A stretch of DNA of 64,000 nt from the NCBI GenBank assembly GCA_005885555.1, contig VAWN01000037.1:1-64000 (forward strand). Reading direction: 5' to 3'. Shown piece after piece: positions 1,718-63,788 of the stretch (the stretch's first letter is position 1; each line of letters starts with the position of its first letter). A program made the translations under genes and the position numbers. The notes beneath the pieces were generated by a model that made no database searches, was not told the origin of the DNA, and saw nothing but the letters and a program-made list of their open reading frames with translations. Source of the stretch: Actinomycetota bacterium. Lineage in GTDB: Bacteria > Actinomycetota > Actinomycetes > Mycobacteriales > Micromonosporaceae.

Positions 1718-3160
1718 ATGGACGCCGTGATTGAACCTCTCCTGGATGCGGACGGGATCGCGCGGCTGCGCGCCGCGCTGCAGGCCGCCGGGTACACCAG
1801 CAACGGGATCGCCGACCGGATCGGCCCGCAGGCGACCGTCGCCCTGCGCCGCAACGACTTCCGCGCGGCGCTGCGGGCCACCACCGACCGCGACCCCCTC
1901 GCCGTCCTGATCCGGTTGTTCGTCTGCGCCCAGGCCGAGCCGCGCGCGGCGGTCGCGGCTGCGCTGCCGGCCGAGGCTTTCCCGCTGCTCGCCGAGGACG
2001 GTGACGCCGTCCGGTCCATCGTCGACCTGGAGCCGTACGGCGAGGAATCCTGGGTGATCTCCGACCTCACCGGCGGTACCCCGGCGCCCGATCATGTCCT
2101 CGGCGTCGGCGGCGCCTCGACGATGCTGGCCGGCGCGACGATCCGCCGACCGGTAGCGACCGCGCTGGATCTGGGTACCGGCTGCGGAATCCAGGCCCTG
2201 CACCTGTCCACGCACGCGGGGCGGGTCACCGCGACCGACGTCTGCGCCCGGGCGCTGCGCTTCGCGGCCACCACCGCCGCGCTCAACGGGCTGGACTGGG
2301 ACCTGCGGCTGGGCGACCTGGCCGAGCCGGTACGCGGTGAACGGTTCGACCTCGTGGTGAGCAACCCGCCGTTCGTGGCCGGTCCGGGTACCGCCACGCA
2401 CGCCTACCGCGACTCGGGCCGGCCGGGCGACGCCGTCTGCGCGGAACTGGCCGCCGCCGCACCCGACCTGCTGACCGAGGGCGGCACGATGCAGTACCTC
2501 GCCAACTGGCTGCACGTCGCCGGCGAGGACTGGACGCAGCGGGTGGCCGGATGGGTCGCCGGTACCGGGCTGGATGCCTGGATCATCCAGCGGGAGGCCA
2601 CCGACCCGGTCTCCTACGTCCAGCTCTGGCTCGCCGACGCCGCGCAGGCCGGCGACGTCCGGCGCACCGTCGAATGGCTGGACTGGTTCGACGCGCAGAA
2701 GGTGGAGGCGGTCGGCTTCGGCCTGGTCACGCTGCGCCGCGCGGGGCACGCCGATCCGGTGGTCCGGGTCGAGGACCTGCGCCAGGCCGTGGACCAGCCG
2801 CTCGGAGACCAGGTCGCGGCCTGGTTCGACCGCCAGGATGCGGTCCGCGCGGGTGGCCTGCTCAGCCGGCGGTACCGGACGGCAGCCGGCCTGCGCCTGC
2901 ACCAGGAGGCGACGATCGGGACGCAGGGCTGGGCGGTGGACCGGCAACGGCTCGCGCTGCCGCACGGGCTGCGCTGGACCGAGGAGGTCGATCCGCTGGT
3001 CCTCGCGCTGGTCAGCGGCTGCGACGGCGGTGTTGCTCTCAAAGACCAGCTCACCGTGCTGGCCGCGGCGCACGAGGTCGACGAGGAGGTACTCGCCGAG
3101 GTCGCCGAGCCGATCGTGGCCCACCTCGTCGAGCGCGGCTTCCTGGAGATCGTGCGGTGA
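1718..3160 (+). CDS. Class I SAM-dependent methyltransferase (DUF7059/small-MTase type)
   Basis: About 480 residues. An N-terminal helical domain (about 1-130) precedes a Rossmann methyltransferase domain with motif [14 protein letters not shown] (about residues 150-162) and the catalytic NPPF motif ([11 protein letters not shown]), the signature of methyltransferases acting on exocyclic or side-chain amides and amines such as HemK and RlmG. The C-terminal 200 residues form a separate domain found in actinobacterial homologues. The substrate is unknown; rRNA, tRNA or protein glutamine are candidates by family. Start choice is uncertain: ATG 1718 or GTG 1727 fit family length better than the more upstream GTG 1682. 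The stop overlaps the GTG of dtd (GTGA), implying translational coupling. Confidence 0.8.
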
Positions 3161-3579
3161 GAGCGCTCGTGCAGACGGTCAGCCGGGCGAGCGTGACCGT
3201 CGACGGTACCGTGGTCGGCGCGATCGGCGACGGCCTGCTGATCCTGCTCGGGGCCACCCACACCGACACCGACGCGACCGCGAAGGAGCTTGCCCGCAAG
3301 GCGTACGAGCTGCGGATCTTCGACGAGGAACGGTCCGCCGCCGACCGCGCGGCGCCGGTACTGGTGGTCAGCCAGTTCACCCTGTACGGCGACGCGCGCA
3401 AGGGGCGCCGCCCGAGCTGGACCGCCGCGGCCCCGGCCGAGGTCGCCGAGCCGCTGGTCGACGCGTTCGTCCGGGCACTGCGGGAACGCGGCGCCGACGT
3501 GGCCACCGGGCGGTTCCGGGCGCGGATGCTGGTCGAGTCGGTCAATGTCGGACCGCGGACAGTTCTGCTGGAGTTGTGA
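3157..3579 (+). CDS. dtd: D-aminoacyl-tRNA deacylase
   Basis: A 140-residue protein that hydrolyses D-amino acids from mischarged tRNAs (and Gly-tRNAAla), recycling the tRNA. Hallmarks are [17 protein letters not shown] around residues 68-84 and the closing [12 protein letters not shown], which contains the Gly-cisPro motif of this dimeric enzyme family. Length is typical. The GTG start overlaps the TGA of the preceding methyltransferase by GTGA, so the two are probably co-translated. The N-terminal [16 protein letters not shown] also matches the family closely. Confidence 0.95.
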
Positions 3580-3684
3580 TCCGCGTTGCGGATCTACCTG
3601 GACAAATAAGGAGAACCCAGCTCCCGAATTAGTGCCACGCATCGAACGCCTCACCCCGACTTCACGTGTCTAGGTAGACGCTCT

Positions 3685-3710
3685 ATTTCCGTACAGCATT
3701 TCCGTACAGC
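3685..3710. repeat. Perfect 13-bp tandem duplication upstream of sigB
   Basis: The unit ATTTCCGTACAGC occurs twice back to back (3685-3697 and 3698-3710). It lies 30 bases before the GTG of the SigB-like gene, in a more A+T-rich patch that also contains TAGGTAGACG. Two head-to-tail copies at 13-bp spacing suggest either a binding site for a tandem-binding regulator or a recent slippage event. Confidence 0.6.
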
Positions 3711-3739
3711 GTGGAACCTCGAGCACATGGGGGAGGCGA

Positions 3740-4753
<1,014 letters not shown>

Positions 4754-7165: not shown

Positions 7166-8324
7166 GCGGATCCAGGCCCAGCAGCGGGAAGACCGCGTTG
7201 CGGGTGGCGAGGATCGCGCGGTCGACCGCGTCGGCGGTCTCGCCGGGCTGCCACGCCGTCCAGGTGGCGGAGCCGCGGTCGGTCATCCAGGCCGGCACGT
7301 CACGGCTCGGCCGGCGCCGGTGGGCAAGGTTCTGCCAGCTGTCCGGGGTCGGGGTGGCCGGGTCCAGCGGCTCCCCGGTCACCACCGCGAGCAGGTGCGT
7401 CCACGCCCGCGGTACCACTTCCACCAGCGCGTACCCGCCGCCGCCGGTGACCACCCACCGGCCCTCGCACAGCTCCTCGGCCAGGTCGCGCATGGCCAGG
7501 TAGCTGGCCCGCTGCGCGTCGACGGTCAGCCGCAGGTCGGCCAGCGGGTCCAGCCGGTGCGTGTCGGCACCGCACTGGCTGAACAGGATGTGCGGCCGGA
7601 ACGCGCGCAGCACCGAGGGCACCACCGCGTGGAACGCCCGCAGCCAGCCCGCATCGCCGGTACCGGGAGGCAGCGCCACGTTCACCGCGCTGCCCGCAGC
7701 ACCCGGGCCACCGGTCTCGTCGGGGAAGCCGGTGCCGGGGAACAGGGCGAGCGGCGTCTCGTGCAGGCTCACCGTCAGCACCCGCGGATCGCGGTAGAAG
7801 ATCTCCTGCACCCCGTCGCCGTGATGCACGTCGACGTCCACGTAGGCGATCCGCTCGACGCCCCGGTCGAGCAGCCGGGCGATCGCGATGGCCGGGTCGT
7901 TGTAGACGCAGAACCCGCTGGCCCGGTCCGGCATGGCATGGTGCAGTCCGCCGGCGACGTTGACCGCCCGGCGCGTCCGGCCGGCCCAGACCTCCTCGGC
8001 GGCGGCCAGGGTCGCACCGGCGACGAGCGCGGACGCCTCGTGCATCCGAGGGAACACCGGGTTGTCCGGCGTGTCCAGGCCGTACCCCGGACCGCCGGCC
8101 CGGACCGCCTCGATGTACTCCGGCCGGTGTACCCGGGACAGGGCCAGCTCGTCGGCCGGTTGCGGGGAGATCATCGTGACGTCCGGCCGGTTGAGGATGC
8201 CGAGGTCGCGAGCCAGCGCCATGGTCAACTCGATGCGTACCGGATCGAGCGGATGGTCGCCGAGGTCGTACCGCAGCAGCTCGTCGGTCCAGACGACGGC
8301 GGCGCCCTTGGCGGACGGGCTCAT
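7149..8324 (-). CDS. acuC: Acetoin utilization-type deacetylase AcuC (class I HDAC fold)
   Basis: About 391 residues of the arginase/deacetylase fold. Catalytic features are GGLHHAMPDRASGFC (active-site His pair), YVDVDVHHGDG (zinc-binding Asp and His), the later CGADTHRLDPL (second zinc Asp), and GGGGY (transition-state Tyr). AcuC enzymes remove acetyl groups from lysines, classically reactivating acetyl-CoA synthetase. I chose ATG 8324: its ATG overlaps the TGA of the upstream sulfurtransferase gene (ATGA), and the family N-terminus fits. It is followed directly by the Pat-type gene with a 17-base overlap, making a writer/eraser operon. Confidence 0.93.
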   Translation of the reverse strand: MSPSAKGAAVVWTDELLRYDLGDHPLDPVRIELTMALARDLGILNRPDVTMISPQPADELALSRVHRPEYIEAVRAGGPGYGLDTPDNPVFPRMHEASALVAGATLAAAEEVWAGRTRRAVNVAGGLHHAMPDRASGFCVYNDPAIAIARLLDRGVERIAYVDVDVHHGDGVQEIFYRDPRVLTVSLHETPLALFPGTGFPDETGGPGAAGSAVNVALPPGTGDAGWLRAFHAVVPSVLRAFRPHILFSQCGADTHRLDPLADLRLTVDAQRASYLAMRDLAEELCEGRWVVTGGGGYALVEVVPRAWTHLLAVVTGEPLDPATPTPDSWQNLAHRRRPSRDVPAWMTDRGSATWTAWQPGETADAVDRAILATRNAVFPLLGLDPHDPRD

Positions 8325-41461: not shown

Positions 41462-43564
<2,103 letters not shown>

Positions 43565-43627
43565 TGCCACCCCTACGTTTGCCGTCTTCGCGGTTGCCTT
43601 CGCGGAGGAACTCTTGGTCACGCCGAC

Positions 43628-44041: not shown

Positions 44042-44665
44042 GTGCCTCACGTGCCACTGGACGACTGGCTGGAACGGTTGGGTTCGGCCGCGCCGACCCC
44101 CGGTGGCGGGGCCGCCGCCGCGCTCGCCGCGGCGACCGGCGCGGCGCTGATCGAGATGGTGGTCAACCTGACCATCGGCAAGTCGGCCTACGCGGAGCAC
44201 GAGTCGCACGTCCAGCCGATCGGCGCGCAGGCCCGCGCGCTGCGGCAGCGGGCGCTGGAGCTGATCGACGCCGACGCCGCCGCGTTCGACACCGTGATGG
44301 CGGCCTACGGCCTTCCCCGGGACAGCGACGCGGAGAAGGCGGCGCGGACGGCCGCGATCCAGGTGGCGACCGCCGACGCGGCCCGGCCGCCGATGGAGAT
44401 CGCGGAGGTCGCCGCGCGGATCATCGAGCTGGCCGCGGCGCTGCCCGGGCGGTCCAACCGCAACGTGCTGTCCGACGTGGGCGTGGCCGCCGCACTCGCC
44501 GGGTCCGCGCTGGAGGCCGCCGCGATCAACGTCGAGGTCAACGTCGGGGCGCTCAAGGATCCGGGGGTACGGGAAGAGCTGCGCAAGGAGCTGTCCGCCC
44601 ACCTTATCGCCCAGCAGCTCGGTCGTGAGGTGGTCGGCAACGTGCTGCACGGGGTTGCCGGCTGA
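44042..44665 (+). CDS. Cyclodeaminase/cyclohydrolase family protein (FTCD_C/Fch)
   Basis: A 207-residue protein of the family shared by formimino-THF cyclodeaminase and methenyl-THF cyclohydrolase (Fch). The N-terminal PLDDWLERLGSAAPTPGGGAAAA and the MVVNLTIGKSAYAEHE segment are typical. It is coupled to a FolD paralogue by TGATG overlap. GTG 44042 is chosen; GTG 44051 is also possible. Which of the two activities it has cannot be told from sequence; the coupled FolD argues for cyclohydrolase (methenyl- to 10-formyl-THF). Confidence 0.8.
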   Translation: MPHVPLDDWLERLGSAAPTPGGGAAAALAAATGAALIEMVVNLTIGKSAYAEHESHVQPIGAQARALRQRALELIDADAAAFDTVMAAYGLPRDSDAEKAARTAAIQVATADAARPPMEIAEVAARIIELAAALPGRSNRNVLSDVGVAAALAGSALEAAAINVEVNVGALKDPGVREELRKELSAHLIAQQLGREVVGNVLHGVAG

Positions 44666-45507
44666 TGCTGATCGACGGAAGGAAGCTCGCCGCCGAGCTG
44701 GGCGCCGAGCTGACCGGCCGGATCGCCGCCCTCGGTACCGCGCCGGGGCTCGCGATCGTCGTGGCGACCGACGATGCCAGTACCGCGTGGTATGTGCGGT
44801 CGCTGCTGCGTACCGCGGAGAAGCTCGGCATCGCGGCGCGCCGGATCGACCTGCCGACCGACGCCGACGCGGCCACCATCCGCGCGGCGCTCGCCGAGGC
44901 GGCGGCGACACCCGGTACCCACGGAGTGATCTGCCAGACCCCGCTGCCCGGCGGGTTGACGCTGACCGACGTCGGATCGGCGATCCCGCCGGAGGCGGAC
45001 GTCGACGGGGCGAACCCCGTCTCGCTGGGCCTGCTGGCCGCCGGGGCGCCGGACGCGTTCCCGCCCGCGACCGCGGCCGCGGTCCTGCGCATCCTCGACC
45101 ACGAAGGCGTCGACCTCGTCGGCCGGCGGGCGGTGGTGATCGGCCGGTCGAACGTGGTCGGCAAGCCGGCCGCGCTGATGCTGCTGGCCCGGCACGCGAC
45201 GGTGACGGTCTGCCATTCCCGTACCCCCGACCTGCCGGCCGTCGCCCGCGAGGCGGACGTGCTCGTGGCGGCGGTGGGCCGGCCCGAGCTGGTCACCGCG
45301 GAGTACGTCAAGCCGGGTGCGGTCGTGATCGACGTGGGCACCAACGCCACCGCCGACGGTGGCCTCGTGGGCGACGTGGCGACCGGCGCGGTCGAGCAGG
45401 TCGCGGCCGCGGTCACCCCGGTACCCGGCGGGGTCGGCGCGGTCACCACGATGGTGCTGATGAGCCACGTGGTGGCCGCCGCGGAGCGGCGGGGATCAGA
45501 GCGCTGA
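44665..45507 (+). CDS. folD: FolD-like methylene-THF dehydrogenase lacking the catalytic lysine
   Basis: A 280-residue FolD-fold protein. Aligned to E. coli FolD, Tyr43 is kept but the catalytic Lys (normally four residues later) is Leu47 (CTG at 44803-44805). Gln91 (ICQTPLPG) and Asp114 (ADVDG) are kept, and the NADP-binding VVIGRSNVVGKP and PVPGGVGAVT are normal. The usual substrate-loop PCTP is PPAT. Loss of this Lys abolishes cyclohydrolase activity in studied FolD/MTHFD enzymes, so this is probably a dehydrogenase only, or a divergent paralogue. It is translationally coupled to the Fch-like gene. Its end overlaps the udgX end by 12 bases. Confidence 0.75.
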   Translation: MLIDGRKLAAELGAELTGRIAALGTAPGLAIVVATDDASTAWYVRSLLRTAEKLGIAARRIDLPTDADAATIRAALAEAAATPGTHGVICQTPLPGGLTLTDVGSAIPPEADVDGANPVSLGLLAAGAPDAFPPATAAAVLRILDHEGVDLVGRRAVVIGRSNVVGKPAALMLLARHATVTVCHSRTPDLPAVAREADVLVAAVGRPELVTAEYVKPGAVVIDVGTNATADGGLVGDVATGAVEQVAAAVTPVPGGVGAVTTMVLMSHVVAAAERRGSER

Positions 45508-61228: not shown

Positions 61229-61687
61229 ATGCGTAAGTTCCTGCAGCGGACGGTCGTCATCGGTACCACGGTCGCCGTCACCGCCCTCGGCGCCGGCGCC
61301 GCCTACGCGTTCGTCGCCGCCTCCGGGACCGGCTCGTCCAGCCAGAGCGCCACCTCGGCCGCGAACTACCGGCTGGACGTGACGGTCAGCCAGCCGGCCA
61401 CCCTGGTCCCGGGCACCACCCAGACGGTCACCGTGACGGTCACGAACAGGGGCCCGGCCAAGGTGCGGATCAGCACCGCGACCCTGTCGCTGGGGACCCT
61501 GCCGTCCGGCGTCGACCAGGCGGCCTACGACACCATCAAGCTGAACCAGCCCGCGGTCCTGGCGCAGGTACTGGACAAGGACGAGACCACCACGTTCACC
61601 GGTTCCATCCAGATCCAGGACTCGGCCACGGTGGACCAGACCTCGCTGCTGGACAAGACGTTCACCCTCAACGCGAACGTCAGCTGA
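61229..61687 (+). CDS. Small secreted protein with signal peptide (beta-sandwich-like)
   Basis: A 152-residue protein. The signal peptide (MRKFLQRTVVIGTTVAVTAL, then AYA cleavage region) precedes an Ile/Val/Thr-rich domain with an RLDVTVSQPATLVPGT start and VTVTVTNRGPAKVRI, which resembles CARDB-type extracellular modules. No enzymatic motif. It is followed after 65 bases by a second small secreted protein, likely the same operon. Confidence 0.7.
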   Translation: MRKFLQRTVVIGTTVAVTALGAGAAYAFVAASGTGSSSQSATSAANYRLDVTVSQPATLVPGTTQTVTVTVTNRGPAKVRISTATLSLGTLPSGVDQAAYDTIKLNQPAVLAQVLDKDETTTFTGSIQIQDSATVDQTSLLDKTFTLNANVS

Positions 61688-61752
61688 CGCAAGTCAACGG
61701 GGGCCTGCCGGGCGGTTCGCCCGGCAGGCCCGCCCCGACCGAGGAGAAGCAC

Positions 61753-62187
61753 GTGCGCAGGACGATCCCCGTAGCACTGGCCGCCAGCGTCGCCGTCGCG
61801 CTGCTCTCGACCCAGCCGGCGTTCGCCTACGCCCGCACCAGCGGTACCGCCGCCATGAGCCAGCACGTTGTCGCCGGGCGACCGCTGACCGCGCCGAACT
61901 CCCCGGTCACCGTCGGCAGCAAGGGCGATCCCACGGGGGCGCCCGCGACGGCCACGGTGACCAATCCCGACGGCTTCCACCGCTGGGTGCACAGCCTCAC
62001 CGCCGCGTTCGTCTCATCGTCCAAGAGCAACTGCACGGCGGCCGACTACCAGATCTCCTCGCCGACGTCGCCGCTGCACCTCACCGTCGCCGGAAACGGC
62101 ACCCTGTCGGTCCCCGGCGTCACCGTGGCGGTCACCTCCACGAACTGCAACAAGTCAACGGTCACCCTGTCCTACACGGTGGGCTGA
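61753..62187 (+). CDS. Small secreted protein, partner of the preceding gene
   Basis: A 144-residue protein with a signal peptide (MRRTIPVALAASVAVALLS, then AFA cleavage region), GTG at 61753 with AGGAG upstream. The mature part is a Thr/Ser/Val-rich domain with Cys near 94 and 131 that may pair (SNCTAADYQISS and TSTNCNKSTVTL). Function unknown; it shares the style of the preceding protein and may act with it at the cell surface. Confidence 0.65.
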   Translation: MRRTIPVALAASVAVALLSTQPAFAYARTSGTAAMSQHVVAGRPLTAPNSPVTVGSKGDPTGAPATATVTNPDGFHRWVHSLTAAFVSSSKSNCTAADYQISSPTSPLHLTVAGNGTLSVPGVTVAVTSTNCNKSTVTLSYTVG

Positions 62188-62903
62188 CCGACCATCGCGT
62201 CGATCGCGGCCCGGATCGGGCCGCTGATCCCGATCTCCCCGGCGATCGCGGCGGCCTGCTCAGCCAGCCGCCGCGCCTGCGCGAACTCCCCCTCCGCCTG
62301 CCGGATCTGCGCCAGGAACTGCAGCTGCGCCGCCGCCTCGGGCAGCGCGCCGCAAGCCAGTCGCAGGGTCAGGCTCTGCCAGGTCAGGTCCCACGCCAGC
62401 GTCCGGTTGCCGGTGCCGTAGAACTCGTAGAACGCAAGGTGGCGTAGGCAGTACGAGAGCAGGAACGGCTCGGCACCCGCGCGCACCTCGGCCCATTCCG
62501 CCCGGGCGGCCTCGTGGTCTTCGAACAGCACGTCCAGGCTCGTCGCGTGGAAGAACCGCGCCCAGGCCCGCAGCGCCGGGTCGGGCAGCGACCGGGCCAG
62601 CTCGGCGAACCGGTCCACCACCGCGCGGCAGCGCGCCTCGTCGCGGTCGTCGCCGAACAGCAGCACGCCGTACCGGTACCGCGCCTGCGCCAGCGTCCAC
62701 TCCGGCGTCTCGCCGACCGCCTCCCGCGCACGGTCGAGCAGTTCGGCGACCCCGTCCCGCCCGGTGAACAGGTAGCTGTCCACGGCGATGAGCGCGGCGA
62801 CCAGCCGCCCCTCGGCAGCCGGTACCGATTCGGCGAGCCGGATCGCGGCATCCCACCGCCCGGCCCGCCCGAGCAACCGGGCGGCGCGCAGCGTGTCGTC
62901 CAT
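62172..62903 (-). CDS. TPR-like helical repeat protein
   Basis: A 243-residue all-helical protein (LLGRAGRWDAAIRLAESVP; AQARYRYGVLLFGDDRDEA; LQFLAQIRQAEGEFAQARRL) with tetratricopeptide-like pairs, suggestive of a protein-binding scaffold. No other domain. ATG 62903 is used. It is convergent with the secreted protein, overlapping by 16 bases. Confidence 0.65.
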   Translation of the reverse strand: MDDTLRAARLLGRAGRWDAAIRLAESVPAAEGRLVAALIAVDSYLFTGRDGVAELLDRAREAVGETPEWTLAQARYRYGVLLFGDDRDEARCRAVVDRFAELARSLPDPALRAWARFFHATSLDVLFEDHEAARAEWAEVRAGAEPFLLSYCLRHLAFYEFYGTGNRTLAWDLTWQSLTLRLACGALPEAAAQLQFLAQIRQAEGEFAQARRLAEQAAAIAGEIGISGPIRAAIDAMVGQPTV

Positions 62904-62999
62904 TCGCGCGAGCGTACCGGCAACGCGGTCAGCCGCCCCGGCGCGGCAACAGCACGGTCAGCCGCCGCGGCGCGGCAGTCGAGCCGCTAGCCTCTGGTC

Positions 63000-63788
63000 A
63001 TGGCGGCCTATGACTGGATCACCTTGACGACCGACTACGGGCTGTCCGACGGCTACGCCGGGATGCTGCGCGGCGTCATCGCGCAGCACGCGCCGTGGGC
63101 ACGGGTCATCGACGTCACCCACCTGGTACCGCCGGGCGACGTCGCGCGCGGCGCCACGGTACTGGCACAGGCGGTCGGGCACTTCCCGCCGGCGGTACAC
63201 GTCGGTGTCGTCGATCCCGGCGTCGGTACCGGCCGGCGCGCGGTCGCCATCCGGACGCCGCGCGGTCTCCTGGTCGGACCGGACAACGGGCTGCTGACCG
63301 CCGCCGCAGATGCGTTGGGCGGGGTACAGGCGGCGGTCCGGCTGACCGAGACGACCTGGTTCCTGCCCGAGGTGTCGATGACGTTCCACGGCCGGGACAT
63401 CTTCGCGCCGGTCGCCGCGCGCCTGGCCGCCGGGGTACCGCTGGCCGACGCGGGACCGGCGATCGAGCCGGAGTCGTTGGTACGCCTGCCGGAGCCGATC
63501 GTGGTCATCGGCGACGGGTACCTGGAGGCCGAGGTACTGACCGTGGACCGCTTCGGCAACGTCCAGCTCGCCGCCCCCGGTCCGGCCATCGACGGGCTCG
63601 GCGAGCAGCTGATGGTCGGCGGTGTCCGGGCCACCCGCGCGAAGACCTTCGCCGACGGCCAGCCGGGCCGGCTCATCGTGTACGTCGACTCGGCCGGCAA
63701 GGTGGCGCTCGCGGTCAACGGCGGCCGGGCGGTCGTCGCGCTCGCGGTCAGTCCCGGCGACGTCCTGCGGATTGCGAGCCGGGCATGA
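63000..63788 (+). CDS. SAM hydroxide adenosyltransferase (DUF62, SAM hydrolase)
   Basis: A 262-residue protein of the fluorinase/chlorinase/SAM-hydrolase superfamily. Motifs TLTTDYGLSDGY, GVVDPGVGTGRRAV and EVSMTFHGRDIFAP (containing parts of the Asp-Arg-His triad that positions hydroxide) indicate the hydrolase rather than halogenases. It converts S-adenosylmethionine to adenosine and methionine. Its stop overlaps the ATG of the next gene (ATGA). Confidence 0.9.
   Translation: MAAYDWITLTTDYGLSDGYAGMLRGVIAQHAPWARVIDVTHLVPPGDVARGATVLAQAVGHFPPAVHVGVVDPGVGTGRRAVAIRTPRGLLVGPDNGLLTAAADALGGVQAAVRLTETTWFLPEVSMTFHGRDIFAPVAARLAAGVPLADAGPAIEPESLVRLPEPIVVIGDGYLEAEVLTVDRFGNVQLAAPGPAIDGLGEQLMVGGVRATRAKTFADGQPGRLIVYVDSAGKVALAVNGGRAVVALAVSPGDVLRIASRA

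Follow-up and report, generated by a model that had tools for sequence, protein, structure and literature searches.

The window, by which we mean the whole 64,000-nucleotide stretch of DNA that was analysed, carries a two-gene unit in which a gene of the Fch family is followed directly by a FolD-like gene whose product has leucine at the position of the catalytic lysine. From sequence and predicted structure, we consider it very probable that the FolD-like protein is a monofunctional, NADP-dependent methylene-THF dehydrogenase, that Fch supplies the cyclohydrolase, and that the two together replace one bifunctional FolD. The features of the locus are as follows.

44042 to 44665, plus strand: fch, methenyl-THF cyclohydrolase-like protein of the FTCD_C family, 207 aa; putative GTG start, TGA stop
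44663 to 44667, plus strand: TGATG, overlap of the fch stop and the folD-like start, with probable translational coupling
44665 to 45507, plus strand: folD-like gene, predicted lysine-less methylene-THF dehydrogenase, 280 aa; ATG start overlapping the fch stop
44803 to 44805, plus strand: codon for Leu47, aligned with the catalytic Lys54 of Escherichia coli FolD

The two reading frames overlap by one base, as the first-pass annotation had described for the FolD-like start and the Fch-family stop, and are probably co-translated. On one side the pair is flanked by a DUF3046 gene, recA (with an intein) and recX, and on the other by a uracil-DNA glycosylase gene; these neighbours all lie on the minus strand, so fch and folD-like form a free-standing two-gene unit. 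The interrupted RecA gene occupies 41462-43621 (minus strand), and its intein has a LAGLIDADG endonuclease domain. Across about 105 Fch-FolD pairs, with start codons picked by script, the end of fch and the start of folD share 4 bases in 40 cases and 1 base in four, the window pair being one of these four. These 44 pairs are mostly actinomycete, making start/stop overlap common within the actinomycete clade, and a gap between the two genes is frequent in pairs of the Val and Ala clades described below.

The FolD-like protein scored above the Pfam cut-offs for both FolD domains (PF00763 THF_DHG_CYH, 77.1 bits; PF02882 THF_DHG_CYH_C, 192.8 bits), and its predicted structure (mean pLDDT 97.3) had human MTHFD1 as top structural match (Z 39.4, 1.3 Å over 278 residues). 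Alignment with E. coli K-12 FolD and solved relatives paired Tyr43 with Tyr50, Leu47 with Lys54, Gln91 with Gln98, and Asp114 with Asp121. The residue assignments first made by eye thus stand: tyrosine, glutamine and aspartate are kept, leucine occupies the lysine site, and the lysine has been replaced, not moved to another position in the motif. The NADP site is also kept as annotated, with Arg161, His184 and Ser185 all in place, these being the 2'-phosphate residues named for the human and Leishmania enzymes (PMC3368264). The canonical P-C-T of the PCTP loop is P-A-T in the window protein (FPPAT), in line with the PPAT originally read, and relatives have APAT or PPAT. The protein therefore shares with canonical bifunctional FolD (E. 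coli, human MTHFD1) both domains, the fold, the Tyr/Gln/Asp set and the NADP site, but differs from it in having leucine for the lysine of YxxxK, a changed PCT loop and an adjoining Fch.

Leu47 is common to the window FolD and its nearest relative (78% identical), and the same substitution is kept over dozens of genera; judged from these sequences, it is therefore beyond chance. The same evidence bears on whether the folD-like gene is simply decaying, its lysine lost by neutral drift. The loss of a catalytic residue is the sole point in favour of decay, to which we give almost no credence, because the frame is intact, the structural model is confident, the protein keeps its remaining catalytic residues, Ile/Leu persists at this site over deep divergence, and no replacement FolD was found.

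The partner protein matched Pfam FTCD_C at 201.7 bits, above the cut-off. Fch 7vg4 is a solved relative (E 7.8e-41), and 31 columns are invariant between the window protein, Fch 7vg4 and the solved homologue 1o5h; by these alignments it is a member of the Fch/FTCD_C fold family. The best NCBIfam model was the FchA equivalog NF045657, at 199.7 bits and under its 275-bit cut-off, and Fch stretches of other pairs and clades likewise fell under 275, at 197-259 bits. A role as the formimino-THF cyclodeaminase of histidine breakdown was considered and rejected, since the formiminotransferase domain (PF07837) had no match in the window genome.

The window genome is a 6.7 Mb draft in 197 contigs, 99.98% complete. 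Its one FolD match is the Fch-coupled gene itself; the second, canonical, lysine-bearing FolD that the first-pass annotation proposed to look for was sought and none was found in this genome, so its term 'paralogue' is misleading. With a draft of 197 contigs, an overlooked second FolD is unlikely, yet possible. Fhs also had no match in the genome, which leaves the pair as the only standard route to 10-formyl-THF that was found there.

To place the pair in context, we compared adjacency by coordinates in 151 genomes from the window's family. A strong FTCD_C match was present in 47, and in all 47 a FolD domain lay about 1 kb away. The pair's FolD is the sole FolD in 23 of these pair-bearing genomes (the window genome included), of which 20 are without Fhs and none has the formiminotransferase domain. 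Fch-adjacent FolDs of the family have the signature TAWYVRSI/L, CQTPLP or LQTPLP, DVDGANP, APAT or PPAT, and GRSxVVGKPAALLLL; non-adjacent ones have YVxxK, and PCTP in most cases. Certain relatives have a lysine-bearing FolD besides the pair, and a specialised role is possible there, which lends something to the idea that the pair serves a different C1 carrier or a side pathway outside central folate metabolism. We regard that idea as very unlikely, given that in the window genome and 22 relatives no FolD other than the pair's was found and Fhs is mostly absent, that the protein folds like a THF enzyme and has the substrate residues of one, and that the adjoining genes at the locus are unrelated to C1 metabolism.

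The survey was then extended to the phylum, to Clostridia and to named genomes, which yielded 171 non-redundant FolD sequences; a FolD was counted as Fch-adjacent if it lay beside Fch on the same strand. The lysine site of the Fch-adjacent FolDs holds Ile in 46, Val in 28, Ala in 24, Leu in 11 and Lys in one, with one unreadable, so that 109 of 110 readable sequences are without the lysine. Among the non-adjacent FolDs, 55 of 60 have it; the five entries without it represent four distinct genes, and the genome of each carries Fch at another site or on the opposite strand (G548, G549, G552). When further families of the class were sampled later, outside the set on which the rule was formed, all 23 Fch-adjacent FolDs lacked the lysine. 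The co-occurrence survey that had been suggested at the outset thus gave a consistent result, both for adjacency (47/47 in the family) and for lysine loss (109/110 and 23/23). Outside the family, many Fch-family matches have no adjoining FolD (43 loci from L142 on have no FolD match), and the rule is accordingly limited to Fch-adjacent FolDs and does not extend to every Fch; lower-scoring matches without FolD may in some cases be other subfamilies.

The single sampled Fch-adjacent FolD with lysine is from Clostridiales PH28_bin88 (L174:1402-2313, plus strand), in which the glutamine is replaced by Glu. It branches beside the Anaerolineae lysine-less clade with moderate support, and may be an intermediate step of the FolD/Fch split. 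Its lysine beside Fch, together with the score of the window Fch under the FchA cut-off, are counterpoints to the split. Several other loci depart from the simple pair. In an Anaerolineae locus (L099), two distinct lysine-less FolDs (3046-4131, minus strand, and 7211-7810, plus strand) lie within about 5 kb of a single Fch, one of them on the opposite strand. One genome with an Fch-FolD pair has a second, weak FTCD_C copy (L204, G096:C11:58000-62000) about 1.3 kb from Fhs (61571-63253 of the same contig). Another has a second pair (L203, G053:C78:66000-70500) made up of a divergent Val-type FolD (AYERRV) and a divergent FTCD_C protein, a type also present in distant Actinomycetota (L269, L270).

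In a maximum-likelihood tree, the window FolD falls inside a clade of 30 actinomycete lysine-less FolDs (support 99/93). Three further groups stand apart from it: one with Ala, drawn from Clostridia and part of the Actinomycetota (the Ala clade), one with Val from other Actinomycetota (the Val clade), and one with Ile from Anaerolineae. Glutamine is also lost in the Ala and Val clades, to Phe, Leu or Met (for example L142-L168 for Val, and L206, L220, L222 and L232 for Ala); it is kept in 53 of 57 Fch-adjacent Ile/Leu FolDs, including the window clade, and in all 55 sampled lysine-bearing non-adjacent FolDs. Most Val clade FolDs have His for the NADP-site Arg, and cofactor use in the Val and Ala clades may differ. 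The tree requires three changes of lysine state, and a single origin for all lysine-less FolDs was not rejected (AU p = 0.31). The association between lysine loss and Fch has therefore been long kept after few events and does not reflect many independent losses, and with a single origin not rejected we make no claim of repeated convergence. On the tree, changes of lysine state and of Fch adjacency are rare, giving too few independent contrasts for a test of correlated change.

The first-pass annotation had compared the pair with MtdA/Fch of Methylobacterium, a likeness that is borne out for function but not for lineage. There too the dehydrogenase and cyclohydrolase are on separate proteins, and the window Fch is about 45% identical to the homologous Fch 7vg4; the Methylobacterium dehydrogenase, however, is MtdA, whereas that of the window is a FolD by Pfam and fold. 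No FolD match was found in two methylotroph genomes examined for this comparison, and many Fch-bearing methylotroph genomes (L062, L065, L074, L081, L126 and others) are without a match, as expected if MtdA/Fch replaces FolD.

FolD/FchA of Clostridium perfringens and acetogens is the closer precedent, because the FolD fold is already used there. Aluri et al. 2016 (Microbiology 162:145) are said to have found that C. perfringens FolD is a monofunctional dehydrogenase and that FchA is also needed to replace E. coli FolD. That system would thus resemble the window, with its predicted activities, in having a FolD-fold monofunctional dehydrogenase and a separate FTCD_C-family cyclohydrolase, and the window pair has the corresponding arrangement of a lysine-less FolD beside an Fch-family gene. 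PMC7219735 cites Aluri 2016 for the separate FchA in C. perfringens. C. perfringens has Fhs besides FolD/FchA, whereas the window genome has no Fhs match. The sampled clostridial Fch-adjacent FolDs (the C. perfringens sequence lies outside the sample) mostly have Ala at the lysine site and Phe/Leu at the glutamine site, in contrast with the Ile/Leu and retained Gln of the window clade. Acetobacterium woodii has an fhs1-fchA-folD cluster (PMC10472528), in which, as in the window, fchA is followed directly by folD; its pair lies within a Wood-Ljungdahl cluster with Fhs and methylene-THF reductase, whereas the window pair stands alone and in a genome with no Fhs match.

In the division of labour that we propose, the FolD-like protein would convert 5,10-methylene-THF and NADP+ to 5,10-methenyl-THF and, with Leu47 in place of Lys54, would be unable to hydrolyse the product; Fch would then convert methenyl-THF and water to 10-formyl-THF. 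Since the window genome has neither a second FolD match nor an Fhs match, methylene-THF would there reach 10-formyl-THF mainly or solely through the pair, to supply purines and initiator formyl-Met. We infer the activities, the cofactor and the reaction direction, drawing on the known chemistry of human and E. coli FolD. E. coli FolD K54S is reported, by Sah and Varshney 2015, to be without cyclohydrolase and still high in dehydrogenase activity. The cyclohydrolase step requires the lysine; with Fch at hand, losing it would be tolerable, which fits the survey pattern. Roles of Lys56, Gln100 and Asp125 have been described for the human enzyme (PMC3368264, PMC6443876), where Lys56 is also said to aid hydride transfer (PMC3368264), so the dehydrogenase activity of a Leu47 protein might suffer.

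Alternatively, the FolD-like protein could still be bifunctional by way of another residue or water, leaving the Fch-family protein to another reaction such as formimino-THF cyclodeamination. Fch and the FTCD cyclodeaminase are one fold and family, and the sub-threshold FchA score of the window protein is compatible with such a role. We nevertheless find it improbable, because the formiminotransferase domain is missing from all 23 sole-pair genomes, lysine loss tracks Fch across clades, and the human Lys56 has been linked to both steps (PMC3368264). The split of dehydrogenase and cyclohydrolase over two proteins, as originally suggested, is the reading that the evidence supports: a lysine-less FolD occurs with Fch, no canonical FolD is needed, and the dehydrogenase residues are kept.

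The FolD/Fch split as such is already known from C. perfringens FolD/FchA. In the literature searched, which covers few subscription papers, we found no description of an Fch-FolD pair in actinomycetes. As far as these searches reach, three aspects are new: an actinomycete clade marked by a distinct residue signature, its part as sole FolD in genomes mostly without Fhs, and how closely loss of the lysine goes with Fch. A broader generalisation is that gain of Fch generally leads to loss of the FolD lysine, more than once in Actinomycetota, Chloroflexota and Clostridia, that many FolDs listed as bifunctional in databases are monofunctional dehydrogenases, and that the coupled pair is the only 10-formyl-THF route in many actinomycetes; we hold this tentatively, as a proposition that falls slightly short of an even balance. 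The natural, separable dehydrogenase and cyclohydrolase parts may be usable in C1 engineering. The lysine-site residue and the neighbouring gene would together predict FolD function, and the pair suggests that bifunctionality is predicted in error for the FolDs of many actinomycete families and of other Actinomycetota classes, which would change metabolic models and the view of FolD as an antibiotic target.
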